Origin: Capitulum mitella
Lineage: Eukaryota; Arthropoda; Thecostraca; Pollicipedomorpha; Pollicipedidae
Reading direction: 5' to 3'
Assembly: GCA_030062745.1 (NCBI GenBank)
Contig: CP099854.1
Coordinates: 13,712,153-13,776,152 of the forward strand
Length of the DNA stretch: 64,000 nt
The position numbers and the translations under genes are program-made. The notes beneath the pieces were generated by a model. That model did not search any database. It was not told where the DNA came from and saw nothing but the letters and a program-made list of their open reading frames with translations. Below, piece after piece: positions 33,609-62,992 of the stretch. Each line of letters begins with the position of its first letter. The stretch's first letter is position 1.

Positions 33609-33801
33609 CTACCCGTCGTCGGCCTGCTCGCCGGCGGGTGGCACCACCATCAGGCTGACCGAGAGCAGAAGAGGGTAGGTGGCCGCTTCCTGCAGAGTCA
33701 TGACCCGCACCTCCTGACCGCGCGCCAACTGAACAGCCGTCAGGGGCGTGGTCTGCACGTGTCGCACCGTCCTCTGCTCGTCCAGACTAACGGCCCGCAC
33801 C
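33609..33801 (-). CDS. gcl: gcl exon 10 (C-terminus and stop)
   Basis: Encodes [32 protein letters not shown] and [15 protein letters not shown], ending in TAG at 33609-33611. The fly protein has TVTSINAQRQ...LSLEKNEEVPLMVL...PLLISINMLVVMPP, so this is the terminal beta-strand region. The protein stops about 10 residues after VVPP, whereas the fly protein carries a further disordered tail of roughly 80 residues. Acceptor ACCGGCAG|G. I found no AATAAA within several hundred bases downstream; the nearest candidate is an ATTAAA (minus strand) at about 32838-32843. Confidence 0.9.
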
Positions 33802-36800
33802 CTGCCGGTGACGCAGCACAACAAATCAGTCCGGTCCGTGCCCTGTCAACAGATCAGCCCGGTCTGTAACCTGTCAACACATCAGCCCGGTCTGTACCCT
33901 GTCAACAGATCAGCCCGGTCTGTACCCTGTCAACAGATCAGCCCGGTCTATACCCTGTCAACAGATCAGCCCGGTCTGTACCCTGTCAACAGATCAGCCC
34001 GGTCTATACCCTGTCAACAGATCAGCCTGATCTGTACCCTGCCGGCCACACAGCACAACACCGCCAACAGTGCCACAATGACGTCACAGAATGTGCCAGA
34101 AACCCGTGGCAGATATACGGCAGGTTCGCGACGAAATTGTCACACAATCAGGCTCACACAATGACTAGAACGGTGCCAAACCGGCTGGAAGACGGCCGGA
34201 CACGTCAAATACTTCACTCAGCACGCTTCAAAGGCACAATGCGGCACGGCTGACTGACTGATCGGTGTGTGAACGTAAACCAGGACCTCACACAGACCGC
34301 GAACAAAATAACCACTGCAAACCATAGGAATAGGACAATACGTCGGACCAGCTGTCCACAGACAGTGACTGTTTATCACTGCTGCTGCCAGTTCCACACA
34401 GTGCTGCTGTTGCCGCTGCCGCCGCAGCAGCAGAGCCGTCCAGTTACTGACCGGTACACGACGTCTCGGCTGGCGGCGTGACTGATTAACATGGGCAGCT
34501 CCTGCCGGACGTTCCTCCGCAGGGAGATGTAACGCCGACTGTGAACCATCACCTGGAGACAGGAGTGAGACGGTGAACCATCACCTGGGGATAGGGGCGC
34601 GACTGTGAACCAACACCTGGGGAGGGAGAGCGAGACTTGAACTATCGCCTGGGGATGGAGGGTGAGATAGTGAACCACCATTTAGGAGGGACTGTGAGCC
34701 ACTGCCTGGGGAGGATGGGAACAATGAACGATGTGAACAAATGAACAACACTGTGAACAATCACGGAGGGGGGGGGGAGGCAGGCTAGACTGTGACCATC
34801 ACCTTGCGTTGGAGCGAGACTGTAAACCATCACTAAGGGATGACTACTAGCCATCACCTGGGGGAGAAACGATGCGCCTCGAGAGCAGAGGACAACGACA
34901 GTGAAACATCGTGAAACAGTGAAACGTCGCCAACACAAACTGACTGATCGCAGGGCTCTATCTGTGTCCACAAGACAGAAGAGTTTTTGGACAGGACAGA
35001 CAAGCCTGCGCCAAAACCCACGTTTGAAGCCAGGCATGCCGGCTCTACCCCGAACCGTGGCAAAATCCGGTACCGTGTTCAGTGAGTTTCGACGCGTATC
35101 TCACTGTTACTGATTCACGCGGGCAGCGACGGCGGAAAAGGGGGGGGGGGGCAGGAGGGGCGGCCGCCCCCCCAGCCGTCAGACTGGGGGGCAAAACTAT
35201 GTTTTTGCCCCTCCAGAAATTTTGGTCGCTGCACCAAGCAAAATCGTAAAAAATCACCCTCACGCTATTAAGCAAAAGAAAAAATCGATGTACGAACCGG
35301 AAGAAAACGTACTCCGAATATACAAGAAGGCTTTGTGCTATGAAGAGGCCCGTGGCTTGAATAAGCGTTTAGGGGTCCCTGCTAGCTTGTAGGGCAATTC
35401 ACGGCTTGTTTGAGGAGGGCCCCCCCCCCCTGTAGATCCATAAAGGACCCCTGCCAGCCTCTGAAGGAACCTCCTTTCGGTCTGGCAAAAGCACCCTGCC
35501 CCTGCCTCCAAAGGTCGACAGGGGCCCATTACAGACAGATAGGGTGCCCTCTACAGACAGGCAATGACCCCCCTGGCCAACAGGTGCGCCTAAACGATCA
35601 TTCAGGAGCCCCTGCTTTCCTGTAAAGATGCTCCTGCCGACCTGTAACAGGCACCCGCCAGGTCGGCAGGGACGTCTTTACAGGTGAGCATGGGCCCGTT
35701 TATATTTCAGCGAGGCACCTTTAAAAACCGACAGTAATTTTCACCACATGAGGCCCCACTGATTACGAGGGCCAGGAGCGGATCCAAAGGGGGAGCAATT
35801 GGGGTGGCCATCCCCTCCCCCTGAGGGCTGAGAAGGACCCTGTCAGACTTAGGAGTGCCGAAGGGGCCCCGTATGAGCTTCACGGGATCTCTATAAAAAC
35901 CTGACGGGCTCTTGATGCAATCAGAGAAGCCTCCTGGAGGGCTAGATGACATCTGAGACGCATAGTGGGCCCCTGAAGCTCCCAAAGGGCCTCTGAGACC
36001 ACAACAGGGTCCCAACACGGCAGACTGTTTTCGAGACCGCCAGATGGCTCATAGGGCGTCTGAGACGGTCAAGATGAGAAATGAGTCCCTAGAGGGCCCC
36101 TGTGAGTGAAAAGCTGAAGGTTCTTGATGTAGTCCGAGGGCCTCCGGGAGGGTTGATGAGACAATGACACGGTAAGATGGCCCCTAAGATAGAAAGAAGG
36201 GTCCTTAAAACTTTTCGAGGGCCCCTGGCACTGCAACGGACCCCAACACCGCAAAGAGCCCATGAGACCGCTAACATTGCCACAGAGGCACCTGAGACGG
36301 AAAGAACTTTAGATGGTCCCTGGCACGGCATAAGGAGACCCTGGCCAGCCAGAAGGGCCCTGAACGGGGATTCGTCGGTAACCTATTCAGTCTCGAGAGC
36401 GGCCACTAATGGTCTACATTGGCGTTTTTGAAACCTTGAGGGTTCTTGATGCTGTCAGGGGCCCCCGGGAAGGTCAGGTGGTTTCTGGGACGGCAAGATG
36501 GGCCTGTACACCACAGATGACCCCTGAGACCTCCAAAAAGGTCGCCGAACCCCTGTGAGACAATGACGATAAGAGTGCCCCTGAGACGGTATTTGGGCTT
36601 TATGGGGGCGCTGGACGGCCAGAGGGTCCCCGAGTGTAATAAGCGGGCTCCTGGCACGGGCAAGACCCCCTGAGACTGCCAGCGAGGCCCATGAAGCGCC
36701 AACAAAACGGCTAGAGTTGTTTCGGGTAGAGGGGCCCTAAACGACTACGAGATATACCTCGTGTAACAAAGGAAGACCCCTGATACATCCATAGGGACCG

Positions 36801-39800
36801 CCGGGGACGTTCAGAGGGTCTATGACACTGCACAGGGGCCCTGAAATTGCCAAAAGGTCTTTTGTAACTGCCAGAGGGCCCATGAGATGGCAAAAATGCT
36901 TCCTCGAAACGATGAGAGGGGTATCAAAGACCGCAGGGGGTCCACTGAGACTGCTAGAGAGGGACCTTTGATACTGCTAACTAGAAGCCTCTAGTGATAG
37001 GGCCACTGAGACGACCAGAGGGGCCCCTGAAACTAATAAATCTTGAGACGCCCAGACTGCTCGTGAAACGGCCAAAGGACTTCGACGATCGCAGGAGGCG
37101 CCCCTGTCAGCAGAGAGAGACTTACACAGGGCCCTTTTTAGTGCTTGAGGGGCTCCTTGAAGGGATCCGAGATGGTTTAAGCGTTCCTGAAACTGCCAGA
37201 TGGGTCCCTGTGACTGTCCGAGGTGCTGCTGAAACTGCCAAAGGAGCGTCTGAGACGTCCGGCGGGACACGTGACACTATCAAAGGAACCTGAGACCACT
37301 AGAGGGTCGTGGCACGGCATGAGGCCCGAGACCACCAAAAGTGCCCCTGTAACTGAAAGAGGGAACCTAAACTAAGGTGACCTAAACTAAACTAAACTAA
37401 ACTAAACTAACCTAAACTGAAAAAAAATCTCAGAAGCTACGGGATTTGGGGGAGGGGGATAGACGGGCTCCTGGACCAGATACAGACACGACATTTCAAA
37501 TGAAGGGAGTGACGGAGCCGCCTAAAATCTCGCTCTTTTTGTCATATTCCGGTCACTTTGTTCGGAAACAAAACGCAGAATTTTCTGAAATAAGATGACG
37601 CGTTTGAATTTATTCGGTTATTTCATATCGTAAAAAGCAGAATTACATCATTTTCCACATCTGAAGGGCAAAAAATGGGGGCCCCGCGCTGACCATTTGC
37701 CTCCACCCCCTCCCCCGCCTTAGCAAAATCCTGGATCCGCCCTTGGCGAGGGCTCCCACTGATTTCGAGGGTCCCCTTGATCCGATTTGCCCTCCCCCTG
37801 GGAGGAATCCTGGCTGCGTCCCTGGTCCATTATGTCAGAGATTTGGTGCTGGCATTGTTACACTATGTGTGTGTGGGGGACAGGCAAAGCTGCTTTGGCA
37901 AGTGCTTGAGATAATGATTTCGTTCTCGTGTGATAGTCTGTGAGAGCTTTGTTACTAAGCGTCGAGTTACAATTTAATGTTGTGGGAAGAAACTGCCTTT
38001 CATCCGTTTCCAAATCTATTTTATAATGATGTTAAATTCGTAATGTAAACGCAAACATAATAGCAAACAGAAGTTTGCATCATTCGCCATTATGTAGATG
38101 GATGCCCAAAAACAAAAACCGGAAAAATGGCAATGGGTAGAGACCTGAACAGAAAAATCCACGCATTTTTAGAACACAAGTGTGCACTAGCGCCAAACCT
38201 GGGAAAAAGGTTTGCTTATTTAAAGAAAAACTGGGCGATAGCAAAAAGAACGAAATTCAGCTATTTTTTGGGGGGGGGGGGAAAAGAAAAAAAAAAAGGG
38301 GGGGGGGGGAAAAAAAAAGGGGCCCCCCCCCCAAAAAAAAAAAAAAGCCCCCCCCCCCGCACGCGGGTACGGTGGCTGACAAACGAGACCAACGCGGTAG
38401 CGATTCATGACAAGGCCCACCTGTCACTGACCTGAAGGGACACATACGATCAGACATGTGCCCGGATCCCGACGGAACGCAGGTTATTTTCATGTCGTAT
38501 GCGACTCCTCGTTGACCTGAACGGGTCACTGCGTCATCTCGGAAACGTCGTGCCCCTCTGGAGCCAAGCGGTGCCCAGGTGACGCAACACTTGCCCTGGT
38601 CGGCGTAGAATCCGACGCAAAACGAGGACAGTCTGCATTCCATCGGGATCCCAGCACATGTCTGCATACGAAGAACTTCCAAACGAGACAAACGAGGCGC
38701 AATCACGCCCAACAGAGCCACCCCACTCTCCGCACCCCGCTCCTGTTCATACACAGACGCGCCCACACCTGTCGACGAACAGTGTACAACATATCTCCCA
38801 TCCCCTCCAACAAACGTCACGAGCGAGTGCGACCAGAGCCTCGGCCGACAGCACCCGTTCTAAACGAGGGAATAAACAGCCACAATGGATAACAGCTTGG
38901 AGCTGGGCCGGCTGTGTCGGACCAGGTCACGCCCTTAGTCCCGAGGGCCCCACCAGGTCACGGCCGCGTGACTGGCATGTTCATGACGTGAACAACAGAG
39001 TACTATTTATACAGGTGCACAGGATCGGTACCAGGTCGACGCCGAAGTTGAAGCCGGTCCAGCGCCAGGTGCACTTGTGCCGGTCGGACAGTGTCCGGCC
39101 ACAGCGCAGGGCGCGCGCGTCGAACTGGGCCTCGGTGACGTCACGGCTCCAGCCGGGCTCAATCAGCGCCTGGTCGAGCCGCAGCAGAGTCTGCCACTGC
39201 CGGCGGTACAGGCTGGCGACGAACACGGCCAACACGTCATCAACCGGACTCGTCAGACATCACAACGCGTCACACATCACACTTCTTCACATACCAGATT
39301 ACATCAGACACTACACCACGTTGGACGTCAGACCACGCCAGACACCAAACCACGTCGGACACTAGATCACGTTAGACGTCAGACCACGTCAGACACAATG
39401 TCAGACCACGTCAAGCAACAGGACACGTCAGACGTCAGACCACGTCAGACACCGGACCGCGTCAGACACCAGATCACATCAGATGCCAGACCACGTCAGA
39501 CACCACACAACGTCAGACCACGTCAGACAACAGGCCACGTCAGACATCAGACCACGTCAGACAACGGACCGCGTCAGACACCAGATCACGTCAGATGCCA
39601 GACCACGTCAGACACCACACAACGTCAGACCACGTCAGGCAACAGACCACGTCAGATATTAGACCACGTCAGACAACGGTCCATGTCAGACACCAGATCA
39701 CGTCAGATGCCAGACCACGTCAGACACCACACAACGTCAGACCACGTCAGACAACAGGCCACGTCAGACATCAGACCACGTCAGACACCGACAGATCGGG

Positions 39801-42800
39801 TAAACACGGCCGACTGTCGGCAAACAGAGATCCGCATGTTTCATTTATACGGTAAGTGGCCTGTATTCTCACAATGACCACATAACATTGCTGACAACGG
39901 AATGCAAACAAATGCCGACGAACTCGTAGCGTCGTCGCCAAACGTTCGTCCCGTCCAAAGCAACACATCGGATTCTGCACGACGCACGCTGTGTGACACT
40001 TAGAGACACGTACGTGATGCGGCCTTCTTGACGCTGTCCTGCGTGTGAGACATGTGTTTCCGTTTCCATTAGCAGCACATCGCACTTACCGTAATCAGCG
40101 TGCCATTCATTCTCTGTTCGATCCACCACTGCCACTCCGACTTTGTGGCGTTCCTTTGTCTTTCCGCCCCTACACCAAGTCTCTCTCGTAATACGCTAAA
40201 CTCTGGACCCAGCTTACTGTCCATCTTTGAACTTTTCTCATCATGCCTCCGAGCCTAGTCTGTCTTGCTATCCAACTCTAGGCAATATCTTCCTCTACTA
40301 CACAACTCCGGGGCCGTCTGACCCGGCTATCCAGCTATCTGACTCGGCTGTCAAGCTGTCAATGTATCTCACACCGATGCCCAGCTGTGGGTCACTCTCA
40401 CCCTGCCGTCCAGCTCTGCGGGACTATGTTGTCGGCGTTCAGCACGTCAAAGTCGAGCGGGTGCATCACCAGGTGAGGGAAGCGTAGCGCGCGGAACGGA
40501 GCGGCCAGCGCCGCCGCCTCCTCCGACTCCAGCAGAGGCTCCTCAGCTGAGCGTGGTGGACAGGGGTACGGCACGGTCACCATCAGGCGTTGAAACATAC
40601 GAAGGCACAAGCAAGACATGTCGGTTCAATCGGTGTAATATAAACGGCATAATCGATAAAAAACACCAAAGACATGACCCACAAACGCCGTTCAACGTCC
40701 AATCAACCTCCATTCAACATGTTCTTCAGTATCTCCCAAAGCTCTTGTTTACAAATCAGTTCTCTAAGGTAACTGTATGCTATTCATGACAGGCATGGAA
40801 CAGTGACATAATTTGAATTCTCAAGCAATGGAATAACAAATATTAACATAACATATTCAACACGAATTTCTCGAACATCCACGGCGTAACAATTGCCTCC
40901 TAACCAAAAACCCATTCCAGTTCTACGAGACACGGCCGGTACACTATCCCTGCAGACACACTATTCAGCCGAACCTGACCTCCCCGCTCCCGGGCGCGCG
41001 GCCGTGGGAGGACGCCGAACACACCTGCGCGCTGTTGGAAGAACTTGTGCGCGGCTATACCGGCGGCGGCGCCGCTGCCCTGCCAGTCGGGACACAGCCG
41101 CAGGAACAGCCACACCTTCAGTGTCACGTACAGCGAAAACTCCGTCTGGTGGACCAGCAGCGACGGGGAGCCGACCAGAGACGCCAGCACCGACGGACTG
41201 GCGGCAGACGAACAGTCCGGAGCTCAGCTCAGCACCAGCAGACGCCAGAGACATCAGATGCATCAGCACCGACGGACTGACGGCAGACGAACAGTCCGGA
41301 GCTCAGCTCAGCACCAGCAGACACCAGAGACATCAGAGACATCAGCACCGACGGACTGACGGCAGACGAACAGTCAGGAGCTCAGCTCAGCACCAGCAGA
41401 CACCAGAGACACCAGAGGCATCAGCACCGACGGACTGACGGCAGACGAACAGTCCAGAGCTCAGCTCAGCACCAGCAGACACCAGAGACATCAGAGACAC
41501 CAGCACCAACGGACTGACGGCAGACGAACAGTCCGGAGCTCAGCTCAGCACCAGCAGACACCAGAGACATCAGAGACGCCAGCACCAACGGACTGACGGC
41601 AGACGAACAGTCCGGAGCTCAGCTCAGCACCAGCAGACACCAGAGACATCAGAGGAGCCAGCACAGACGGACTGACGGCAGACGAACAGTCCAGAGCTCA
41701 GCTCAGCACCAGCAGACACCAGAGACATCAGAGACATCAGCACCGACGGACTGACGGCAGACGAACAGTCCAGAGCTCAGCTCAGCATCAGCAGAGACTC
41801 CTGCAAGGCCGGATTGACGGCAGATGGAACAGTCAGGCCTCAGCTCAGCACCTCAACAGCACCAGCAGACACCCGAGGCGCCACCATAATGGGCGCAGGG
41901 CGATAACCACTGAACACTACAGACAAAAACAGTGATAATGACACTGAGTCTCAGAGCGCTCTGGTTCGACGAAAAGGTGGAAAAGAGGCGCAACATCGAA
42001 AAACGGACGGCAATGTCAGGTATGGGAGCGATCATCACACAACGCTGAGAAATAATCTCGCGGGTGTCCCCTACAATTTCACACAAACTCCGACATTCAT
42101 CATTTCTTACTGAACTCAATCCAGTCATACCTTTATATCTCAGCTTCGATCCCACCGCGGCCGACTTCACGGAAAATATTCTGCACGTGCTGAAGCATTT
42201 CGCGCAAAATGCAGATGTCCATCTCCTCGAGCCTGTCGCCAATCCTGTTTCCCACCGGCTTCTTGGATGGTTCTATGCGGGTTTCCTCATACATTTTTTT
42301 TTGTTTGTTCCAGAATGCTCCTATCCGACTAAATCCCCGGTTTCAAACGAAAGGTCAAACGCTACCTGCGCCAAGTCTAGTCATACCTATTGTACTTTTA
42401 CCTATTGTATCTTTACTTCATTGCTTGATTTGCCTTGTGTACATGCATTCGTGTATGCTGTTTTTTTTACGCAAGTTATCCATTCAGTTTTGCCGTGTTC
42501 CATCTAATCAAGACTCTGCCTCGTGAACAGCCGTGTTGTAATGGATGAGCCGCAAGTTGCAATACAATACAATACATGTTTGGAGAGCTGTCATCCTCCT
42601 GAACACAGGGACCCCTACAGTATCCAGATATGACGTCATGTGACGATGGTAGTGGCAGGTGGCTGCGTCGGGCGTAAAGAATATGTCTTTCTCAGGGCCC
42701 AGCTGGTCCAGCAAAGGCTTACGGTGTCGTCTGATGACCCTCGTCAGGAATTTTTGGCGATCCATGCATAGGTTTTCCATTATCAGGGGTGAGGCGATGC

Positions 42801-45170
42801 CGGGGAGGGTTGTGATGACTATGATCTTATGAGCGATAACAGTTTTTTCCTTCCCGTGTACGTGACTTCAGACGCACTGTTGAACTTGCCAGTGGTGCAA
42901 AATCCTCGGTTCCTGGAGAACTCAGCCAGAAACTCCGAAGCATTCCTGGTCGTCCACAACGACACCATACTCATACCCTGAGATGAACGGCTCGCGATAA
43001 AACCTCTGGCTCCTCTGCTTTCTGTTGTTGTCAGCTGGTGTTTCAGGCCGTGCCGACTACACAGGTTATTTCGTGCCCATCCAGTTCCTTTGCTGAACCC
43101 TCTACTCGTGCTCCAGTACTTGCAAGCGTTCCTTCTCCCACTTTTGGTGACACAGATGACATTTGTTTTCGATGCTCCGTGGAATGCGACTCTTAGACAC
43201 ACAGCCAGCTCGCCCCGAGAGGGCCACCGCACTGTTCAGTTTCGGCGTGATCTGAAGCCAGCTGGACATCGCTTTTGTCGGCTATCTTCTATTTTCCGTC
43301 CTTCATTCCAGAGATTTGTCACTGTCCACGCTTCCCGTGACCCTGATTGTGGTGGATTTCGATGTTCGCTCCAGCAGAAAGTGACAGCGTGGCGGTTTCG
43401 TCTACTTCCTTGCATGCTTTGTAAAATCGTGCGATGGTTTTCAAACCCTTTACCCTGTGACGTCCTCGTATGGCAAATGAAATCCAAGCCTTGTGCTCAA
43501 CTTAGAGCTTTTCTGACAGAAAATTGTTCTAGCTTTCTGCTGGTGCTACCTTCCGAATTTGTTTATAAATAAATGTCTTACAAGGCACCCTTTAGAAGCA
43601 ATAAAGATTGTGTCAGATTTTCGGGGACACCCGTTAGGAACAAGGTATGATAATAATTATCACATCAAGCTCAGGAACAAAATGTGATTAGCCAAGGGAG
43701 CACTTATCACACAACGATCAAGAACAATGTGCGAACACACAATCGGCATTACAATAGTACGCAGTGTCGGTCCCTGACAAAAGATATCAATAACACACAG
43801 AAAGGCACGATTGCAACAGCTGCTGTCCGGTGATGCAGTGCTTACATAAAACACGCTTTGCCAAATCGCCCTCCACATCAACGGAGCACAAAGCAGCGTC
43901 GCTGGCCGGTGCTCCAATCCAAGCTTCCTGCCGGAGTTTCAGACGCTCCTTCTGTTTCCTTCTGTCTTTCCTACATCGCAATCACTGCTGAAACAACTTA
44001 GCGCTCGGCTTCGGATGACGGGTCCCATCTGAGCTGACACAGTACGGCTGACGGGTCCCACCTGAGCTGACACAGTACAGCTGACGGGTCCCACCTGAGC
44101 TGACACAGCACAGCTGACGGGTCTCACCTGAGCTGACACAGTACAGCTGACGGGTCTCACCTGAGCTGACACAGTACAGCTGACGGGTCCCACCTGAGCT
44201 GACACAGTACAGCTGACGGGTCTCACCTGAGCTGACACAGTACAGCTGGCGGGTCCCACCTGAGCTGACACAGCACAGCTGACGGGTCTCACCTGAGTTG
44301 ACACAGTACAGCTGACGGGTCCCACCTGAGCTGACTCAGTACAGCTGACGGGTCCCACCTGAGCTGACACAGTACAGCTGACGGGTCTCACCTGAGCTGA
44401 CACAGTACAGCTGACGGGTCCCACCTGAGCTGACACAGTACAGCTGACGGGTCTCACCTGAGCTGACACAGTACAGCTGGCGGGTCCCACCTGAGCTGAC
44501 ACAGCACAGCTGACGGGTCCCACCTGAGCTGACTCAGTACGACTGAGGGGGCCCGTCTGAGCTGACACAGCACAGCTGACAGGTCCCACCTGAGCTGACA
44601 CAGCACAGCTCACAGCTCACGGGTGCTGTGCTGACTGCTGTGCTGCCACCTGAGCTGACGCAGTACAGCTGACGGGTCCCACCTGAGCTGACACAGTACA
44701 GCTGTCGGGTCCCACCTGAGCTGCCGCAGTACGGCCGGGTGCTCATTGACGTGGGTCATCAGGTTGTTCTCGAGCCACTGCTGACAGCAGAGCTGCACTG
44801 GACGCAGGCTGTAGGCGGTGGAGGCCTCCAGAAACGCGATGGCTGTCTGCAGGCGACAGGGGCAAAACCAATTGTCCGGCCATCAACGCCCACCACTGTA
44901 CAGGGTCACAACGTGTTGGGCGTATTCAACACGTACTGCGAGTACTGCAGCACACGTGTCCACTGAGATCTCTGATTCCGTTCAACCTGTATAATGAAAA
45001 ATCGGCGTAGGCAGCAGGCTGGGTCACCGCCACACAGCACCAACGTTCGCAACGCACCAGAATGAAAACAATAGCAGACACAATATCGAATATGGCTTCA
45101 AAACGCACATTTGCAAATTTCCGAACGGTTTAAAACATTATAAGATACGACACGTGAAAGATGAAACAGC

Positions 45171-45230
<60 letters not shown>

Positions 45231-48093
45231 CGTATACATATATGTTTACCACTGTCACATGGAAGTTGAAAGTCGCTTGCTTGGCGCTGCAGTCTCCGTT
45301 GCTGTCTGTGCGGGCGGCCGGCAGCTAGCACCAGGCACGGGTCGGCTCGGGTTCCCGTATGAAGCCGCCGGGATCCAGTTATTGGGTTTTGGAGTATTAT
45401 TTGACATGGACTGGGCTAGCACTCGGGGAGCGCGACCTTGACTGTTTGATGGACTGGCTGGCAGGCCAGGAACACAGTTTCTGAAACAATGAAACCGTGC
45501 TTGTAGACTGCCAGCCATGTCGTGAAATAATCAAGACCGCGCTCCTTCCGTGTGAAATATGCAAGACCGCGCTCCCAGTCCGTGCCAACTAATACTCCAG
45601 AACCCCAAAACATAGATCCTGACAGCTTTATATGGGAACCCGGGCTGACCTGTGTCTGCGTGCCTGGTGCTAGCTGCTGGCCGCCCGTACAGACAGTACT
45701 GGAGACTGCAACGCCAAGTAAGCAACATGCAACCACCGTGTGACAGTGCTAAACGCCGATCACAATGGACGAAACTTTGCGCAAGCCATTTTCTCCAACA
45801 GTGCAACAAACGCATGAAAAAGCGCTTTTGAAAAATTTCAAAATAGTCTGAGGTGATAAATATATATCTTTATATATACATGCACACATACACAAAAGTT
45901 TAATGCTATCAGTAATGAGCATGGGCCAATGCTGTCTCCAGGTTTCAGGCATCTTCCAATTTCACAGCAGCAAATCGTTCGGATCAAATAAAGCAACAAA
46001 TCTGGCCATCCGGCGACCAGCCACCAGCGATGGATATTCGTAACGGAGCTCTTCACCTGGACGTTGATGCAGGAGCGCATCACCTCTCCACATTGGGCCA
46101 GCAGGCCGTCCAGCTGGAACAGGGCCGCCGCAGCTACCACGCTGACCATGTCTGATGGCTGCAGCTGAACCTCGTCATGGTACAGCGAGCCCAGCGCCGT
46201 CTCCAGCCCTGGCGGCGACCGGAGGAACTTCAGGTACGGCGAGCCCAGCGCCGTCTCCAGTACTGGGCCGCGTTCAGAAACAACTTGGTCACTTGCCAAG
46301 TTACTTTAGTGCGTCAAAACATTGGGAAGCCAAGTCAATTTTTTTCAGTAGATATAAGCGGAAATACAAGCCTTCCTACAAACTGCAGTAAGGAGGCACC
46401 TGGCAAGCTTGTAATGATGTTAGTTGTAGGTCATGAACGCAGCTTTGGTAATGAAAGGAGAGCTAACTGAAACTGAACCTAGTTATGGTACAGCAAGCCC
46501 AGCGCCGTCTCTAGTCCTGGCGGCGACCGAAGGAACTAATGGTGCAGAGCAGTCCTAGCGCCGATTCCACACCTTACGGTGGTCGGGCGACCTAGCCACT
46601 TACGGGATCTATCAGACGGCAGCAATGCGTGGCCAATGAAGGCATAGAAAATTTTGTTTACAGGAACATTTCGATAAAAGTACTTGGTCAAACACGATTA
46701 ACTAATACTTATCATTCCAATCCGGCCACACGCCATCAAACGATTCGGCAATGATAGGTAAAACCACTGTTTTTCACGCACTCGCCACTGCAAGCGAACA
46801 GGCTGCGTACATCGGTCGACACCTCCCGACCAGTGACAGGGGCGCCACCTGGCGGGCCCACCTGCCATGGTGATGTTGGGGTCGACGATCTCTATGGTGA
46901 TCTCGTTCTCCCGTGCCTCTCGCCAGTTGTCCGAGAACATGCTCTTGAAATAGGGGCTCTGGCGGCGAGCACGAACAATGGAGTCGGACGGGGTTCGGCA
47001 CGCGGCGCCAACAGCGCCAACAGGCAAAACCCACCGGCTCCCAGGGAGGATCGGACCCTCACAGGACGACCCAGAGCAGTATCGGGGACTGACGGAGACC
47101 GACGGTGTAGCGCGTCACTCTCCAGGTCTGTCCTGAAATCCCTGGCTTTGCTGTTCAATGCTCGGCAGCTGTGCATAATGCTGAGGCTACACACAACACA
47201 CGGCAGCCGGAGCGGAAAAACTTCAGCCGCGACTGGCCATAACAGCTGCACGTCATTTATAACGTCATTCCCTCCTTAAACTTTGGACGCATGTCACAGG
47301 CATGCGACCACCACGGTTCAAAAGTTGGCCATCCGTGTTTCGCCGCCGTTTACAAGACACACTCGACGGCACGTTTGGTGTCTTGCTTTTCGTTCTTCTG
47401 TTGTGGTGTCGGAGTATAATTTTTGCTTCGTAGTACAAAATTTTGCAAAGAGGAATACTGGTTTAAGTTGTCGTTCTTGGTGAAAGTCAGTTATGACATC
47501 AAACCTGCCTCTTACTGAAGGGAGTCAATTGCCAGCAGAAATATAAACCTATTAACATGGTTATAATGTAACTTTTCGACAGAGACACAAGAAGAGACTT
47601 TTGAAAACAAAATATTTATGAAGCACATATTTTCTGGTGTTCTTCATCACCAGCCACAACACGTTTTCCAGCCTTGGTCAAAGGCATCGTGCGTCAGCCG
47701 GCTGGGTGATTTGGCTCGGCTGCCGCGCGGCCGCCGCGGCTGCCGGCTTGTTTGGCCGCGGGGCCGTCACGTCCGTGACGACACGTGCGCCGCCAAAACG
47801 TCACGGCCCCAGCGACGGGCGTCACGCCGCGCCGGGTGACGGCTGGCGTTCGGGCGGCGGCCAGGTCCGCAGGCCACACCGCCCGTGACGCAGCAGGAGC
47901 AGGCGGCGGGCCGAGCCGTCTGGTCACGCGGCCAACGGCCGGCCAGTGCAGCAGATAAACCACCAATGTAGGGGAAAACCCGCGTGTCAATAGTCAACCA
48001 GTTGGGCCGGAAAAACTACCGGTGCAAGGAACAAAAATGTTTGTTTTGGGCGACCAAAGACCGGTGCAGGGGAAAAAGCCACAGCAGGCGTGC

Positions 48094-48148
<55 letters not shown>

Positions 48149-51100
48149 TATACTTAATTGCGGCAGGTCCGAGACCAGAATGAACCGTCGTAAAGTGTAA
48201 TGGTCATATGAACCGAACATATTAAAAACGGACGGCAAATGTTTCAAATGTAATACTGTGACTGACTGTGCCACTGAACACCAACGGTCTAGTGTTTTAG
48301 CATAGCATCAAGTAACACAGAAGAAGGTGGGGTGGAATGACCATAGTTTATAATAATCGCAACATGACTTTGTGCGATTCTGAATGCATATGCAGTCTCC
48401 TGAGATTCTACACCCGGTCTTCCGGAACTCTGCACCCGGTCTCTCGACACCCTACGCCCGGCCTCCCGAAACTCCACATCCGGTCTTCCGAGACCCTACA
48501 CGGTCTCTGACGTGCGAGACGCTGCGTCAGGGCGCGTCTGACAGTAGGCGGAGCGAGCTCGCCGGGCGGCCGGCGCACGGCGCGGGCCGCCGAGTCAACG
48601 GCGCGGCCAAGGCCGGGGCCGGGTCATCGATAAAAATCAGCGCGCGCTGCGTGCTGAGCGGCCGGTGCATCTTGTTGTTCGTCGGCAGGCTGACGCCGGG
48701 CCGGAGCGGCCGTGCTGTACGGGGCACGCCGGGCAGGCGGGCCCAGCCGGAAGTCTCAGCTGGCCGGCGATCTGCCGCGCGCTGACGTCGCCCGGGCGGC
48801 GTGCCAGCGGCGGCCGCCCCCGCCGGCGTCAGTCAGTCCGCGCCCGCCGCGCCGTCCGGAGCCGTCCGCCACCGAGCCGCCGTCCCGCCCCGCCCCGGCC
48901 GCCGCCACAATGCGCCTGCTGCTGCTGCTGACGGCCGTGCTGGCCTGGTGCGGCTCAGCCGCCGCGCTCCAGTGCTACGCCTGCCACAGCTCCAAGCCGA
49001 TCCCCGGCGTCAAGCTGGACACCGACATCACCCGCCGGCTGGCCTCCTTCCCGCCCTGCACCGTGCTCCAGAAGGAGGGCGTGGCCGACAAATTCAAGCA
49101 GCGCTGCGGCCCGCGCGACAAGAGCTGCGTCAAGATTGTCGACCCGGCAGACTCGACCAACGAGCTGCGCTCGTGCCTGCCGCTAAGCCGCGACGAATGC
49201 AAGGGCTCGGCCTGCTACTGCACCGGCGAGCTGTGCAACGCCGCGCCGGCCGGCTGGCCGTCCGCCGCCGCGCTGGCCGCCGCGCTGGTCGCCCTCCTGC
49301 TGGGCCGCTGAGCTGGGCCGGGCTGAGCTGAGCCGGGCCGCGGCAGACCGAGGGGTCGCCGTGGCCGACCCGACAGGAGGGACGCGCCGGCGTCCCCACA
49401 CGGCGGCTCTCAGGCGGCCTCACAGCACCGACCACCGACCGGCCCCAGCCCGGACCACCTCGCCGCTTCACTGTGGCCTGTAACGTCACAGCCAGCCGTG
49501 ACGTCAGTCACCAGCAGTAGCGTCAGTGACCCGTGGCGTCAGTGGCCAGCACTGGCGTCAGGGAGCCGGTAGGTCATAGTGACCAGCGATGTCACGGCGA
49601 CCAGTGACGTCACAGGGGATGTGACGTCACGGCCCGACGCAGGTGACCGGTCAGAGGTCAGCTGGCCAGGGCTGAGGTTCGCCGCCGGTCGAGACCACCT
49701 GCCCGGAGACAGAGTCTGTGTTGTGAACGACCTTGTCCGTGTTCCGTACGGTAAACGCCGAATCGTTTCCGCCGCCGCTGCTGTTTGCGGCTGACGCCGG
49801 GTGTGACGTGTTCTGTAGCTAACGCCGGGTGGACGAGCTTCGTTAATAAAACGCGCGCGAAAACAGATCACGACCGAGCCTGTACATCAGAGGCAGAGAC
49901 AGAGACGAGGAAAGAACCAGGAGGCGCGGACTGGCCGACACAGCTGCGGTGTGGCAGCGATCTGTTCACTGTTCTTCTACCCGATCAGGGCCCGTGGAGC
50001 AGGAGCCTCTATCGAATCTGACAACAAACCGGGCCAGGTCGCTGTACGACTGCGGAGGCACTCTGCGGCTGCGGATAGCGCGGACTCTGTCGTCACGGGT
50101 TCGGATCGATGCCCCGCCTAAGCGCGCCGTACACCGCTCCCGACACAATGCACCACTACAGCGGTGTCCAGCAGACCACGTGCGGGGAAACGGCTGCTGT
50201 CCTGGTGACTGGCTCACGCAGCCATTCAGAGGTTGAATCAGCCGGCGCCGGCGACGTCACGGCCGGACCAGAGGTCACCCGCGGCACCCTGCAGGCGCCC
50301 GGGCCCGCTGTCCTGGTCTGAACTGCGGGATCCTCTGGACTGAGCCGTGAAAGCAACGGAAACTGGCCGCCGTGACGCCCGACCTCACCGTACAGTCGGC
50401 CAGCTGGGTCACGGTCTGACCTCACCATATCGAAACCAGGCCAACTAACGTCTCACAATGAAGCAGAGAGGTCACTGCTAAGACCCCGGACACCAGCGGG
50501 GGCGGCGGCGGGGGGGGGGGGGGGGGAGGGAGCAGGACGTGCCTCAAACGTCTACGGAGTTTAACACTACGACTGTGGGATATGCATGTAAAAAACAAGT
50601 GACAAATGTGATGCCTTCCCTAGCTTTTGAGCCATGCTGCAGGCGTTGAAAAAAACCGACTACGATCACACCATCCCACGATTCAAATGAGCATCATGTA
50701 TCATATCTGTACAAATTATGTGCTTGTCCATTTAACGTAACAACCGTTATGGTTATGAGGCGTTTCAACATCTTCAGGCGGGTACAATGCTGGGTGCATT
50801 GTATATTGCACGATTGCCGATGACTCAGCCTCATGTAATCACAGAATGTGAACACACGGAAAACACTGATTTATTATCGCAATGCAACGACTGTGGTTGG
50901 CTGAGCACATCCACTAAGATCCGCATCACCAGTAGAGCTGATAATTCGGACTCGGATGCTACTACTATTCGGCGAATGTTCGGATCTTGATTTCAAGATT
51001 CCAATGTTCCGTGAATATTCGGTTGGCCATTTTTACATCCCAATATTTCCCGATTTTGCATGCTGTCGTGGAATCTGAACATCTGTCTCGATCGCATCAT

Positions 51101-60617: not shown

Positions 60618-62312
60618 CTATATATATATATCACGGCATTTCCGGCACACCTGTTATATGCCATGAAGACATTGATGCTAGTACGCTTCCCGAGTAACTT
60701 TTGTTTTACATTTCGCCCCAGGGCAGGTTGTTAACAGCACACTGCCCTGCCGTCGCTGACCTGGGAAAGGTAGAGTTTGTGCAGCCGCCAGCGTCGCCCA
60801 AGGGCATGAAGCGTGACGTCACTGCCCTCTCCGCCCTTGAACATTGTCTCGTAGACGTAGGCCATGGTGGAGACCAGCTTCCGTCTGCGGGAGGGCGGGA
60901 CACGGCGGGTTAAAGGGTGGCCCGCCGCGGCACTGGCACGCTTCCGATGCTGCCGACGCGTCGGGTCAAAGGTCAGATGTCAGGATCGAGGTCCGGGCGG
61001 GCGGAGCTGTGGAGAGATGGGTAGGCGGCCGGTAAATACCAAAACACTGGTGGCAGCATCGGCACTGTGCCAGGACGCGCACCAAGCTCGTAAGGTGTGC
61101 TGCCGTCAGCAAAATGCGGTTTGTTGGGGGGGGGGGGCAGCTGGTATGGCATAGGACGACATCCAACGCAGCCGTCCCCTTCACACCAGAATTTGTAAGC
61201 TTCTCATTGCACAAACACATACATGTCAACACCTATAGAGTCCAAGCTGACGCCTGATGCTACGGCACGTGGCGTAGTTTTGTCTCAAAAACACCGAGAC
61301 AGATGGCGGCGACGGACCTTGACCATGCCGTACAATGATATGAAATGGCCGTCCAGTGACCGGCTCAACCCTTTCGGTCTAGGGAACAAGTTAAAAAAAA
61401 ACATTCTTGAAACTGGAAAGAATAACAAACGTTCCTGGACAGCATAATTCAGTGGGAGGAATTCGACAGATTGGAGGAAAAGTGGGGTTGGAACCTGCAA
61501 GTTCATCTCAAGCCAGTACAATTCACTGCATCAAACAGGACAAGACAGTAGTGCAGTCATACAGTACGGAGGCTGCAGACCAATATGGCGCCTTCTGGAG
61601 CGCATAAGGAGTAAGGCCTGCTGCAATTATCTCCAACTTTGGAGGCGCATTTTCAAACATTCTAACAAGTACTGCTTTGTCCGGGTTCTTTAATCTCTAT
61701 TGCAAAGGATTCTTCCAAATGCAATCCGACTACAAGTCAAGACAGCTCTTCTATGTAACGCCCATGTCCATTCGCTGCGACGTAACTCCCGCCAACAATA
61801 AGCGCCGCCGTCCGCTCGCTGCGCAGTTAGCACTCTTCACTCCTGCCCTGTCTCATGCGACGTGTATCAATAAGCGCTGCCGTCCGCTCGCTCCGCAGTT
61901 AGCACTATTCACTCCTGCCCTGTCTCGTGCGATGTGTATCGATAAGCGCCGCCGTCTGCTCGCTTCAGGCGGTCGGGAAACCAGATTGTGACAGAGAGTC
62001 CCCCTTGTACCGCGCGTAACTCAGCTGAACCGGCTGAACTATGCTGAACTGGGCTGAGCCGGGCTGGCCGCCCCTCCGGCGCGCCTCTCACAGGAACACG
62101 GTCTCTACAGGCGGCGAGCATTGACGGGACGGCTCCCGGCCTCGCGTGACTACGCCGGCCGCCTGACGTTTTGCCTGTCACTGACTGGCCGCCGCATCCG
62201 ACGTCGGTTACCGCTGATTGGCAAGCGGCTTATGACGTCAAGTGCAATATATATATATATATATATATGTGCGTGTGTAAGTATATACATATAATATATA
62301 TAAGTGGTATTG

Positions 62313-62373: not shown

Positions 62374-62992
62374 ACGATACGACTTAGCATATATAACATT
62401 CCTTGTTGTATTCTGCATTCACGAAAGGCATTTATCAATCTATTCCGGTATTTTGCGGTTCACACACTGCAAGTTTAAAAGTCAAGTACCATGGTACTGT
62501 TCTGCAATTTCTTAAAAGAAAAGAACACGGAAGAAAAAAGGCTGAAGGACAAAAGCAATTTCCAGAATGGTTAACAAGACATACACGTACTGCCAGTCCG
62601 GGACCGTCGCACAGCGTTACTTTTTCTGGTTGTTGGGGCATGACACATCGGCATATAGTTTCGTTGGTAATGGGACTTCAAACAAAACACAGAAGAGCAC
62701 TCTCCAAGCCTTTATTTCTGCACTAAGGTCACGTCTACGATCAATGGACGTCACATGGAAAGTACCGACGTAAAACCATCCCAGTGCTGTCCTTGCTATC
62801 GTCGCCCGACACACCCTCCGCCTCGCCGGCAGTTTGGTGTCCTCACCGTTTGGGCGTCCTCATCAGTCGGTCAACGTCGCCGTCAGCGCCGTCCTCTTCA
62901 TCGTCGTCCTCCAGCTCCTCCAGAGTCCTCTTCAGTCCTCGGCTGGCCAGCGAGCCGGCCGTCTCGACCAATCGGCCGACGGCGGCGCCCAT
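33609..62992 (-). CDS. gcl: germ cell-less (GCL) BTB/BACK protein, ten coding exons
   Basis: Join of ten exons (minus strand, 5' to 3'): 62992-62847, 60884-60761, 46958-46862, 46208-46057, 44846-44716, 41197-41025, 40546-40402, 39212-39032, 34552-34452, 33801-33609. They sum to 1443 nt, encode 480 residues plus stop, and all intron phases match (2,0,1,0,2,1,2,0,2). Every intron is GT-AG. Seen in order: N-terminal MGAAVG, a fit to the N-myristoylation pattern; an acidic stretch (residues 25-37); a basic cluster PKRRKL (about 47-52); a BTB domain (about 66-170, with SDVTLHALG and SPYFKSMF); a BACK-like region (about 174-275); and a C-terminal GCL domain with RCGR and WRWTGFNFG. Known of the family: GCL sits at the nuclear envelope or membrane, recruits CUL3, and in Drosophila promotes germ-cell fate by degrading Torso. 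The protein is somewhat shorter than fly GCL (569 residues), mainly at the C-terminus. Orthology is secure; germline function here is inferred. Confidence 0.95.
33802..34065 (-). repeat. 28-bp minisatellite in gcl intron 9, flanked by acceptor copies
   Basis: About 6-7 copies of a 28-base unit (core CAGATCAGCCCGGTCTGTAC). The end next to exon 10 carries the acceptor in the form CCCTGCCGGTGACGCAGCAC, and the far end of the array carries a second copy, CCCTGCCGGCCACACAGCAC. Confidence 0.85.
34452..34552 (-). CDS. gcl: gcl exon 9
   Basis: Encodes [18 protein letters not shown] and [10 protein letters not shown]. The fly protein has IMDSRRLNIRRHHRHE at this point and human has TNRYIIFKRNTL. Acceptor GTCTCCAG|G in phase 0; donor CCG|GTCAGT in phase 2, which combines with the first base of exon 10 to give Arg. 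The acceptor and the first codons recur upstream as units of a degenerate tandem repeat. Confidence 0.88.
34541..34870 (-). repeat. degenerate tandem repeat of the gcl exon 9 acceptor region
   Basis: Roughly 7-8 diverged units built on GTGAACCATCACCTGG (plus strand), spaced about 30-45 bases. The minus-strand reading of the unit, CCAG|GTGATGGTTCAC, equals the authentic exon 9 acceptor and its first four codons. Confidence 0.8.
35330..37330 (+). repeat. 2-kb degenerate CCCCTGAGAC..CCAGAGGG array in gcl intron 8
   Basis: A long field of heavily diverged units of about 25-40 bases built on CCCTGAGACxGCCAxAGGGxC. Individual copies differ strongly in sequence and spacing, as in an old minisatellite. 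The few open frames follow the repeat and show no domain. Confidence 0.6.
35619..35684. repeat. imperfect 26-bp hairpin
   Basis: Left arm 35619-35644 (CCTGTAAAGATGCTCCTGCC then GACCTG), 14-base loop, and right arm 35659-35684. The arms match except for three or four bases in the centre. Confidence 0.85.
37380..37425 (+). repeat. (CTAAA)n microsatellite
   Basis: Seven or so near-perfect ACTAA/CTAAA pentamers. It borders the degenerate array on one side and a stretch ending in the dispersed-repeat motif AAAATCCTGGATCCGCCCTT on the other. Confidence 0.8.
37440..37800 (+). repeat. dispersed-repeat-like segment ending AAAATCCTGGATCCGCCC
   Basis: A poly-pyrimidine stretch (CCTCCACCCCCTCCCCCGCC) followed by AAAATCCTGGATCCGCCCTT at about 37725. 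Related tails occur at 23041-23095 (AAAATCCTGACTACGCCCCT) and 14595-14615, which suggests remnants of one non-autonomous element. The family is not identified. Confidence 0.4.
38266..38360. other. stacked homopolymer block in gcl intron 8
   Basis: Successive runs of T, G, A, G, A, G, C, A and C, each about 6-14 bases, without intervening sequence. Unlike anything else in the window; either a natural hotspot or a consensus error. Confidence 0.8.
39032..39212 (-). CDS. gcl: gcl exon 8 (RCGR / WRWTGFNFG signature)
   Basis: Encodes [14 protein letters not shown], then [10 protein letters not shown] and [12 protein letters not shown], the most conserved block of the GCL C-terminal domain (fly: MRCGRML...[13 protein letters not shown]). 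Acceptor TCGCCAG|C in phase 2. The donor CTG|GTACCG (phase 0) is the weakest of the gene, but joining here to exon 9 reproduces the family sequence exactly in length. Confidence 0.93.
39235..39790 (+). repeat. higher-order CACGTCAGAC repeat in gcl intron 7
   Basis: Subunits of about 10-20 bases built on CCACGTCAGACACCAGATC are arranged in a higher-order period of about 113 bases (blocks starting near 39446, 39555 and 39670). The array begins about 25 bases upstream of the exon 8 acceptor. Open frames across it arise from the repeat and are not coding. Confidence 0.85.
40402..40546 (-). CDS. gcl: gcl exon 7
   Basis: Encodes [40 protein letters not shown] and VPQSWTA. Family pattern: FLxTxxGxxFxxVFRxLRxxxL...DNIIPxxW. 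Acceptor CGCTCAG|C in phase 1; donor AGG|GTGAGA in phase 2. Introns on both sides preserve the frame to exons 6 and 8. Confidence 0.93.
41025..41197 (-). CDS. gcl: gcl exon 6 (BACK region)
   Basis: Encodes [38 protein letters not shown] and KFFQQRA. The fly protein has LTASPDLYVMQTEFSLYTLL and RTWMFLRLHPDY, so this exon is the clearest sign of arthropod ancestry. Acceptor GCCGCCAG|T in phase 2; donor CAG|GTGTGT in phase 1. The acceptor sits at the edge of a minisatellite of about 79 bp per unit whose units each repeat it. Confidence 0.93.
41180..41835 (-). repeat. about 79-bp minisatellite carrying the gcl exon 6 acceptor site
   Basis: About 8 copies at a spacing of 78-80 bases; plus-strand landmark GACGGCAGACGAACAGTC at about 41201, 41281, 41360, 41439, 41518, 41597, 41676 and 41755. 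On the gcl strand each unit contains GTCTGCCGTCAG|TCCGT, nearly identical to the real acceptor GTCTGCCGCCAG|TCCGT of exon 6. Confidence 0.9.
42133..42294 (-). CDS. short unrecognised ORF, 53 codons, in gcl intron 5
   Basis: ATG at 42294, stop TAA at 42133. The product reads [20 protein letters not shown], then [20 protein letters not shown] and FREVGRGG. The frame stays open upstream for about 15 more codons ([12 protein letters not shown]). Charge pattern and an amphipathic helix ([18 protein letters not shown]) look protein-like, but I do not recognise a family. It may be a transposon-derived fragment, a cryptic exon on the gcl strand, or chance. Confidence 0.25.
   Translation of the reverse strand: MYEETRIEPSKKPVGNRIGDRLEEMDICILREMLQHVQNIFREVGRGGIEAEI
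42590..42830 (-). pseudogene. Tc1/mariner-like transposase fragment in gcl intron 5
   Basis: Minus-strand reading contains [20 protein letters not shown], then [20 protein letters not shown] and [11 protein letters not shown]. It resembles the segment around the second catalytic Asp of DDE transposases (xxFxQDxAPxHxxxxxxxFLxxxGVPVLxWP). The expected downstream WPxxSPDLNPIE block is missing, and a pentanucleotide run (AATAC) follows instead. Upstream DNA to about 43.5 kb may hold more of the element in broken frames but I could not align it. Assignment is from pattern recognition only. Confidence 0.42.
43990..44735 (-). repeat. 33-bp minisatellite carrying the gcl exon 5 donor site
   Basis: About 21-22 copies of a 33-base unit, plus-strand core CTGAGCTGACACAGTACAGC followed by TGACGGGTCCCAC. 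On the gcl strand each unit contains CAGCTCAG|GTGGGA. The first unit is the end of exon 5 itself. Units are highly similar, with a few substitutions and one irregular stretch near 44610-44650. Confidence 0.9.
44716..44846 (-). CDS. gcl: gcl exon 5 (start of BACK region)
   Basis: Encodes [20 protein letters not shown], then [20 protein letters not shown] and RQL. Human GCL has TVCGYYTSAGTYGLDSVKKK, then CLEWLLNNLMTHQN, at this point. Acceptor CTGCAG|A in phase 0; donor CTCAG|GTGGGA in phase 2. The donor is the first unit of a 33-bp minisatellite, so about 21 further copies of the same donor follow downstream in the intron. Confidence 0.93.
45174..45219 (+). repeat. (TA)n microsatellite in gcl intron 4
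   Basis: Uninterrupted alternating AT, followed by TATG repeats to about 45235. Confidence 0.98.
45264..45737. repeat. large inverted repeat in gcl intron 4
   Basis: Arms of about 170-180 bases: left 45264-45440 and right about 45555-45737. Matching landmarks are GGCGCTGCAGTCTCC against GGAGACTGCAACGCC, CAGCTAGCACCAGGCACG against CGTGCCTGGTGCTAGCTGCT, and GGAGTATTATTTG against CAACTAATACTCC. The spacer contains an additional short inverted match of the GCGCGGTCTTG/CAAGACCGCGC type. Arms are clearly diverged, so not a recent artefact. Probably a foldback or MITE-like element. Confidence 0.75.
46057..46208 (-). CDS. gcl: gcl exon 4 (end of BTB domain)
   Basis: Encodes [14 protein letters not shown] then [20 protein letters not shown] and VMRSCINVQ, the classical BTB closing helices (family: GSLYxDxV...LAAAxxLQLDGLIxQCxExM). 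Acceptor CGCCAG|GG in phase 1; donor CAG|GTGAAG in phase 0. The acceptor and first exon codons are present again 54 nt upstream, and a third, more decayed copy lies near 46.5 kb, so the exact acceptor choice deserves an RNA check. The proximal site gives the best family fit. Confidence 0.93.
46209..46560 (-). repeat. partial duplications of gcl exon 4 start in intron 3
   Basis: The segment GGAGACGGCGCTGGGCTCG with an acceptor-like CAG appears at the authentic exon start (46208), again at about 46262, and in a more decayed form near 46480-46545 (GAGACGGCGCTGGGCTTGCT, followed by TAC and an in-frame stop). The first duplicate keeps the exon reading frame. Confidence 0.8.
46862..46958 (-). CDS. 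gcl: gcl exon 3 (BTB core)
   Basis: Encodes 32 residues beginning [15 protein letters not shown] and ending IVDPNITMA plus one base. Fly and human GCL have SPYF/SGYF..MFxGxWxE followed by DxNI at this point. Acceptor GCCGCCAG|A in phase 0; donor CAG|GTGGGC in phase 1. The small size and position suit the BTB dimer-interface segment. Confidence 0.93.
47395..47680 (+). repeat. dispersed repeat family A, copy 2 (gcl intron 2)
   Basis: Counterpart of 19445-19735: GTGTCGGAGTATAATTTTTG, ACAAAATTTTGCAAA, CTTGGTGAAAGTCAG and GCACATATTTTCTGGTGTTC. Roughly 70-75 percent alike by eye. Confidence 0.7.
48097..48145 (+). repeat. (TA)n microsatellite
   Basis: Uninterrupted alternating TA over about 49 bases, about 760 bases upstream of the Ly6 start codon. 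Confidence 0.98.
48395..48515 (+). repeat. short tandem repeat upstream of the Ly6 gene
   Basis: Five diverged units of about 23-27 bases built on CACCCGGTCTTCCGAAACTC, ending about 395 bases before the Ly6 start codon. Confidence 0.65.
48629..48637 (+). promoter_or_regulatory. TATA-like element of the Ly6 gene
   Basis: GATAAAAAT lies about 280 bases upstream of the Ly6 start codon inside a CpG-rich stretch. If used, transcription would begin near 48660 with a 5' leader of about 250 bases. Position and composition only; weak evidence. Confidence 0.3.
48910..49311 (+). CDS. Ly6/uPAR-type three-finger GPI-anchored protein, nested in gcl intron 2
   Basis: Single exon, 133 residues. ATG at 48910 is the first in-frame ATG and has the context GCCGCCACAATG. 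Residues 1-19 form a signal peptide ([19 protein letters not shown]). The mature part starts LQCYAC and has ten cysteines at 22, 25, 50, 66, 73, 89, 97, 102, 104 and 109. The last is followed by Asn110, the C-terminal CN of the LU domain, in the form CYCTGELCN seen in insect Ly6 proteins of the Boudin/Quiver/Crooked type. Residues 118-131 are a hydrophobic tail after small residues, so a GPI anchor around 110-115 is likely. Such proteins act at the cell surface or in the secretory pathway, in channel trafficking, septate junctions or barrier assembly; which role applies here cannot be told. Transcribed opposite to gcl. A lack of introns is unusual for Ly6 genes and could mean an old retrocopy. 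Confidence 0.9.
   Translation: MRLLLLLTAVLAWCGSAAALQCYACHSSKPIPGVKLDTDITRRLASFPPCTVLQKEGVADKFKQRCGPRDKSCVKIVDPADSTNELRSCLPLSRDECKGSACYCTGELCNAAPAGWPSAAALAAALVALLLGR
49485..49640 (+). repeat. degenerate TGACGTCA-rich repeat in the Ly6 3' UTR
   Basis: A run of loosely repeated units of about 20-25 bases of the type GTGACGTCA..CCAGC. Several units contain the palindrome TGACGTCA or near matches (about 49499, 49603 and 49621). TGACGTCA is the CREB/ATF full site, but the repeated structure may simply come from slippage. It lies within the predicted Ly6 transcript. Confidence 0.5.
49845..49850 (+). terminator. AATAAA polyadenylation signal of the Ly6 gene
   Basis: Canonical AATAAA 534 bases after the Ly6 stop codon, the first one on this strand downstream of the gene. 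It implies a 3' UTR of about 550 bases and a cleavage site near 49865-49880. Confidence 0.6.
49880..52520. other. gcl intron 2, no recognised element
   Basis: Includes a G-run of about 18 near 50507-50526. A 191-codon frame on the minus strand (52389-51814) has no recognised domain, no repeats and a composition close to the surrounding DNA, so I do not call it a gene. Confidence 0.45.
52600..53060 (+). repeat. 26-bp minisatellite in gcl intron 2
   Basis: About 17 copies of CATACCGGGGATCCCTCTCC followed by TGTCCG, with very low divergence and one- or two-base indels. Long open frames on the minus strand through this block are repeat artefacts. Confidence 0.92.
53440..53660 (+). repeat. CTGGACCGGACCGGAC-type tandem repeat
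   Basis: Two large units of about 115 bases (near 53500 and 53586) containing internal CCGGA pentamers and ACTGTACTGGGCTGGA. It continues as looser AGACTGGAC repeats on both sides. Confidence 0.7.
53820..56170. other. gcl intron 2, no recognised element
   Basis: Unique-looking sequence of moderate GC with no exon-like frame and no strong repeat. Confidence 0.45.
56177..56298. repeat. compound hairpin: two GATGCCATCGTA palindromes inside a longer inverted repeat
   Basis: GATGCCATCGTA and its complement alternate four times (56216-56227, 56231-56242, 56248-56259, 56263-56274). Outer arms CTGGTCTGCGCAAA (56177-56190) and TTTGCAGACCAG (56287-56298) also pair. It lies in gcl intron 2. Confidence 0.88.
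57085..57690 (+). repeat. 21-bp minisatellite in gcl intron 2
   Basis: About 20 good copies and several decayed ones of GTCCAGCTACCACAGCCGGG plus one base. Because 21 is a multiple of three and no stop arises, several frames on both strands stay open (for example SSYHSRG repeats). These are not evidence of a protein. Confidence 0.92.
57700..59970. other. gcl intron 2, no recognised element
   Basis: Unique-looking sequence. The only features are a G-run near 58887 and a small GGATGGGATG repeat at about 59580-59615. Confidence 0.45.
59978..60250 (+). repeat. TA-rich foldback cluster in gcl intron 2
   Basis: Three long (TA)n blocks (about 60029-60050, 60109-60172, 60207-60250) are separated by related segments. 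The outer arms 59978-60015 and 60171-60208 are inverted copies (AAAGTTTTGGAGAGATTTTG against CAAAATCTCTCCAAAACTTT, about 36 of 38 bases). A middle copy of the same segment lies at 60051-60085. This looks like a nested TA-flanked miniature element. Confidence 0.8.
60568..60612 (+). repeat. (TA)n microsatellite
   Basis: Alternating TA, ending ACATATCTATATATATAT. It lies about 150 bases downstream of gcl exon 2 on the gcl strand. Confidence 0.95.
60761..60884 (-). CDS. gcl: gcl exon 2 (basic motif and start of BTB domain)
   Basis: The acceptor CCCGCAG|A completes an Arg codon with exon 1. The exon encodes RRKL, then [11 protein letters not shown] (family: TxxYIYxxLF), then [20 protein letters not shown], the first strand and helix of the BTB fold (family: SDVxxxALGxxWxLHKxYL). 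It ends CAG|GTCAGC in phase 0. With exon 1 the junction reads TPKRRKL, a plausible nuclear localisation signal. The next coding exon lies 13.8 kb away. Confidence 0.93.
61797..61965 (+). repeat. 72-bp tandem repeat in gcl intron 1
   Basis: Two full copies and a third partial copy, starting at 61797, 61869 and 61941, each beginning ATAAGCGCCGCCGTCCGCTC. The frame stays open through the repeat because 72 is divisible by three; no family is recognised. Confidence 0.75.
62246..62372 (+). repeat. double (TA)n microsatellite in gcl intron 1
   Basis: Two TA blocks (about 62247-62268 and 62313-62370) separated by GTGCGTGTGTAAG and TAAGTGGTATTG. Confidence 0.95.
62847..62992 (-). CDS. gcl: gcl exon 1 (start codon, myristoylation signal, acidic region)
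   Basis: ATG at 62992-62990 opens residues 1-48 plus two bases of codon 49. The N-terminus [10 protein letters not shown] has Gly2 and Gly6, as in the fly protein's MGxxVG start, which suits N-myristoylation. It is followed by an acidic tract ([16 protein letters not shown]) and RLMRTPK, the equivalent of the LLNTPRRKK segment of vertebrate GCL. The exon ends in a strong donor, CG|GTGAGG, in phase 2. Reading on past the donor gives an immediate in-frame TGA, which supports splicing here. Nothing upstream extends the frame convincingly. Confidence 0.88.

Follow-up and report, generated by a model that had tools for sequence, protein, structure and literature searches.

Five of the 18 internal splice junctions of the germ cell-less gene (gcl/GMCL1) of the barnacle Capitulum mitella are accompanied by nearby copies of themselves. 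The gene lies on the minus strand of a 64,000-nucleotide stretch of contig CP099854.1, called here the window, and its repeats, known from the genomic sequence of one haplotype, belong to an already named class, the 'mirage' minisatellites. The explanation favored here, with a probability of roughly 0.68, is ordinary tandem duplication in a gene with an uncommonly high density of arrays, tolerated across splice junctions as surplus copies are turned into intron.

Junctions were probed with 50 nt each, scored against the 1500 bp on either side. One donor (D5, of exon 5, score 71) and four acceptors (A4, 72; A6, 84; A9, 42; A10, 35) stand apart from the remaining 13 junctions, whose local-copy score is only 16–24. 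An earlier note on this DNA had pointed to the same five junctions, and the copies that it described as spanning the splice site are confirmed at all of them. The note also placed each junction at the edge of an array or duplication. This describes D5, A6 and A9 well; A4 has two dispersed copies, and the array reported by Tandem Repeats Finder (TRF) at A10 leaves a gap of 17 bp before the acceptor.

The D5 array (44016..44732, minus strand as all gcl features; 33 bp, 21.9 copies) spans donor 5 and begins 17 nt inside exon 5 (44716..44846), whose donor is the 5'-most copy of the array. Nineteen units carry CAG/GTG (the slash marks the splice site), all in one reading phase. Mean unit identity ranges from 0.68 to 0.95; the unit on the exon side has 0.877, and the lowest value (0.678) is that of the third unit. 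A similar order of unit variants recurs about 231 bp apart within the array (from 44490 and from 44259), which suggests a recent duplication of several units at once. Microhomology was looked for at D5 only, and none was seen there. The A6 array (41176..41795; 79 bp, 7.8 copies) spans acceptor 6 and ends 22 nt inside exon 6 (41025..41197), whose acceptor is the 3'-most of 8 copies featuring CAG/TCC. Units are 0.85–0.94 identical on average, the one at the far edge (0.854) being more diverged than the others (0.911–0.937).

Arrays at the last two acceptors are shorter, and feature several CAG each. The A9 array (34537..34660; 32 bp, 3.9 copies) spans acceptor 9, takes in 16 nt at the start of exon 9 (34452..34552), and is continued by degenerate copies to about 34857. 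The A10 array (33819..34041; 28 bp, 8.0 copies) precedes acceptor 10 and exon 10 (33609..33801, with the stop codon). The segment found at the acceptor (..CCGGCAGGGT..) is repeated at the far edge of the array (34036–34060), and a form of it shorter by 15 nt fits the array units, as judged by eye. No tandem array is found at A4. Exon 4 (46057..46208) has its acceptor within a duplicated segment, of which two separate copies reside in intron 3, 54 and 308 bp upstream: a 34-nt copy of the exon start (46233..46266, 91% identical to 46179–46212) and a 71-nt copy (46467..46537, 89%) of the junction between intron 3 and exon 4, including CCGCCAG and the exon 4 start. Intron 7 hosts an array with 17-bp and 112-bp periods (39293..39790), located about 80 bp from acceptor 8, which is not included in it.

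The exon parts of the units at D5 (..VLRQL), A6 (SPSVLASL), A9 (VMVHS) and A4 align with the GCL proteins of Pollicipes and of a bird. Because the copies contain conserved coding sequence, arrays and duplicates at these four junctions derive from the junction, and not the reverse. The A6 and A10 arrays match this locus only, in an assembly search that skips very common words. The claim that duplication was seeded at exon-intron boundaries is thus sustained in part: repeats start across the junctions, and conserved exon sequence is found in the copies at four of five, while the evidence for a general preference, discussed below, is mixed.

The junctions are defined by a gene model of 10 exons forming one open frame of 480 codons. 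A 425-residue query lacking exon 1 matches the solved GMCL1 protein 9ijj (E 2.4e-91), and a BTB domain is recognized in the product by Pfam. Among named proteins, the closest come from barnacles; the germ cell-less protein of Pollicipes pollicipes, 83% identical across 90% of the query, aligns without gaps to exons 3–10 of the model (P0001). The gene is single-copy: in the assembly searched (477 Mb, 16 contigs), the 480-residue query finds 10 matches, one per exon, all within the window. Exons have a GC content of 65%, introns of 47–55%. The exons not yet mentioned are exon 1, with the start codon (62847..62992), exon 2 (60761..60884), exon 3 (46862..46958), and exons 7 (40402..40546) and 8 (39032..39212), the junctions of which are free of arrays.

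According to the explanation favored here, a tandem duplication would begin across an exon-intron border of gcl, and the array would then lengthen through slippage or unequal exchange, as is usual. The copy adjoining the exon would keep serving as splice site, and the remaining copies would turn into intron along with the exon fragments and redundant splice signals that they contain. As nearly all decoy sites lead to a premature stop (see below), a working gene requires that the exon-proximal copy prevail, and splicing in the animal would presumably be correct. Duplications lying within an exon would alter the protein and be lost, which is why the visible arrays would be either intronic or straddling a border. 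TRF arrays lie over 13–14% of intron positions in gcl, against 2.5–3.4% in a sample of myosin and kinesin genes from the same assembly; this density, several times that of the sampled introns, would be the main reason why gcl stands out.

The sample measures about 178 kb, comprising myosin loci (115,130 unique bases) and 15 kinesin stretches (63 kb in total). Junctions were called from the ends of protein matches and a splice matrix, discarding those scoring below the cut; 65 of 86 myosin matches and 76 of 129 kinesin matches, those with DNA available, were used, and gave 114 and 123 junctions. Local copies initially covered 11 of the myosin and 5 of the kinesin junctions. Eight of the 11 myosin cases fall in clusters of alternative exons of muscle myosin, where the match is between duplicated exons, and were not counted; the 19 junctions of these clusters were removed, leaving 218. 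The latter include two junctions called inside an unbroken match of 1851 bp (L017), which are probably false. Two of the 8 covered junctions left (C3:33325152 and C3:33326373) are at the threshold and similar to each other.

Three arrays clearly span junctions in these genes, all at donors, and their units take in the exon end. They mark a C14 myosin donor (79 bp, 3.2 copies, read in the sequence at L052 8370–8621), a C2 myosin donor (23 bp, 17.3 copies; the exon ends with ..GYPSR) and a C3 kinesin donor (38 bp, 3.7 copies; the exon ends with ..SFIPYR and the next contains NSKLTML). CAG/GTGGG is found at one of the three. In the C14 array, CAGGGT at the real donor is replaced by CAGGGC in both copies downstream; these decoys lack the GT, unlike those of gcl D5.

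The earlier note took five hits in one gene as more than chance, and attributed them to exon-intron borders acting as hot spots which seed tandem duplication, either through R-loops or through slippage at G-rich GTGGG/CAGG sequences. This alternative is judged improbable, but several results favor it and weigh against array density as a sufficient cause. When each TRF array of gcl is put once at random in its own intron, a count for which A4 and A10 do not qualify, 3 arrays touch a junction against 0.58 expected at threshold 80 (12 arrays, P = 0.011) and 0.76 at threshold 50 (18 arrays, P = 0.029), under a null which ignores a possible preference of seeds for GC-rich DNA. The 5/18 junctions of gcl identified by copy score exceed the 8/222 or 3/222 of the sample (Fisher P = 0.0012 or 0.00007; the figure of 222 precedes the final 218). 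A junction preference, local or general, may therefore exist, in the light of this difference and of the placement result. The three arrays spanning donors in other genes, one of them with CAG/GTGGG, point the same way. At threshold 50, array edges in the sample lie within 15 bp of 10/218 junctions versus 83/4329 intron positions (P = 0.013), and within 25 bp of 12/218 versus 128/4329 (P = 0.043), with P values which are too small because neighboring positions are not independent. Under a coverage null, repeats of this kind take up 430/2329 sampled intron positions of gcl (18.5%; 245/1015 in introns 3–9), and 3.3 of 18 junctions are expected to be covered against 5 observed (P = 0.23); this expectation is too high if each array has developed out of one seed. 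TRF edges occur within 25 bp of 4/18 gcl junctions, compared with 3.7–5.5% of intron positions (P = 0.004–0.015), and within 15 bp of none of the 18. The choice of gcl because of its pattern preceded all of these tests on it. The excess in gcl is equivocal, depending on the null chosen: the claim of more than chance is favored under placement and is not under coverage.

Other data from the sample count against hot spots. Local copies cover 8/218 junctions (3.7%) and 128/2696 positions 60–500 bp into introns (4.7%), hence there is no excess of coverage (odds ratio 0.76, P = 0.62); TRF arrays cover 3/218 junctions versus 127/4765 intron positions at threshold 80, and 4/218 versus 164/4765 at threshold 50. 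In 68 paired introns (76, less 8 from the muscle-myosin clusters), 4/22 arrays touch a junction where 2.84 are expected (P = 0.31), or 3/11 where 1.51 are expected at threshold 80 (P = 0.18). No array extends into an exon, against expected numbers of 2.03 and, at threshold 80, 1.08; the three clear junction-spanning arrays fall outside this count, their introns being evidently unpaired. The enrichment of array edges that the earlier note had in mind is seen at threshold 50 but is not significant with stronger arrays (threshold 80: 4/218 versus 41/4329 within 15 bp, P = 0.17; P = 0.18 for a distance of 25 bp). At threshold 50, the junction is inside the array in only 2 of the 10 cases within 15 bp, and the 8 arrays stopping short fit either arrays halted by exons or seeding nearby. 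In this sample, which has limited power, array edges are thus perhaps twice as frequent at junctions as in introns, but there is no excess of junctions within arrays. The sequence motifs do not separate hit from unhit gcl junctions: CAGG is found at 4/5 and 5/13 of them, respectively (P = 0.29), and GTGGG at 1/5 and 1/13 (P = 0.49). The coding-strand GC skew of junction arrays is mixed in sign (A10 +0.29, A9 –0.26, A6 +0.10, D5 +0.07), and ranges from +0.04 to +0.31 in five other gcl arrays; the causes put forward in the earlier note are accordingly not upheld. Four of the five gcl cases are acceptors, but the three clear cases in the sample are donors. The wider proposition that barnacle genomes contain recurrent mirage minisatellites and that junctions, chiefly in genes like gcl, trigger tandem duplication to a degree not accounted for by array density is equally doubtful.

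Two further alternatives are far less probable. Arrays might be kept for function, as tandem alternative splice sites yielding GCL variants of different length, for example in steps of 11 amino acids at exon 5. The common phase of the 19 D5 units is in line with this idea, as are the first two D5 decoys, which are in frame and would add 11 and 22 amino acids, and the scores of the 18 D5 decoys in a rough matrix, where 6 are higher than the authentic donor (6.6 versus 4.1), 11 equal and 1 lower. Against it, 35 of the 39 decoy sites in gcl lead to a premature stop (16/18 at D5, 7/7 at A6, 3/4 at A9, 8/8 at A10 and 1/2 at A4), only 4 keeping the frame, and the model aligned to Pollicipes without gaps is free of repeats. 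A functional role is for these reasons very improbable. Creation or expansion of the repeats by misassembly is the least probable of all: tandem arrays are prone to error and a single assembly was examined, but the D5 and A6 units differ among themselves to a degree not expected from plain duplication by an assembler, and similar arrays are found at unrelated loci.

Additional features were noted in the window. No other intron-bearing gene was recognized among the top-scoring segments. Intron 2 of gcl contains, on the plus strand, a reading frame (48910–49308) with a signal-peptide-like start and a hydrophobic end, as judged by eye, and weak similarity to PF17064, the Quiver/Ly-6-like family (E 0.0066, under the family cut-off); it is perhaps a nested gene. 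Part of an interspersed repeat resides in intron 8 (35123–36000), with 39 other copies 87–95% identical among 40 places scored of 2639 candidates. Long AT/TA dinucleotide runs mark the gcl introns at 45174–45243, 48097–48145, 60028–60264, 60570–60631 and 62247–62370. Frames on the minus strand at 12250–13123 resemble, by eye, the RNase H region of retroelements.

The pattern, of which the earlier note knew no description as a general one, is in print already. The sections consulted of two papers (PMC3087553, PMC3902484) describe mirage minisatellites in amphioxus, in Adh and in the globins BflGb6 and BflGb9, with similar repeats in PGBD5 and troponin C, and according to their authors regular splicing seems not to be disturbed. 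As told in those sections, amphioxus repeats run in tandem across exon-intron borders, at both 5' and 3' borders, and have AG/GT in many units. In gcl, too, copies span the border at donor and acceptor sites and AG/GT is present in the units; head-to-tail arrays are found at D5, A6, A9 and A10, whereas A4 has a dispersed pair. The barnacle repeats differ also in involving five junctions of one gene. In a literature search limited to open-licence papers no arthropod case was found, and the named class came up for amphioxus only; the part consulted of a barnacle genome paper (PMC8416341) has nothing on junction-spanning repeats. The barnacle case would widen the range of mirage minisatellites from chordates to arthropods. 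It provides a natural test of how the spliceosome chooses among many nearly identical tandem sites, 19 donors in the case of exon 5, and calls attention to junction-spanning arrays as elements that can mislead gene prediction.

Two other known systems share features with gcl. One is a variable number tandem repeat (VNTR) of human CBS, which offers alternative donors. This 31-bp VNTR is listed at exon 13-intron 13 in a table (PMC1395315); it is likewise a minisatellite at an exon-intron border, but the table gives one locus only. The other is the gain of introns through tandem duplication, which, as presented in the excerpts consulted of PMC4974935 (the Rogers model, with potato RdRp, ATP2A1 and AGGT repeats in fission yeast as instances), similarly involves the tandem duplication of sequences carrying splice signals. 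There the outcome is a new intron; in gcl, copies are added to introns already present, and the coding sequence still aligns to that of relatives.

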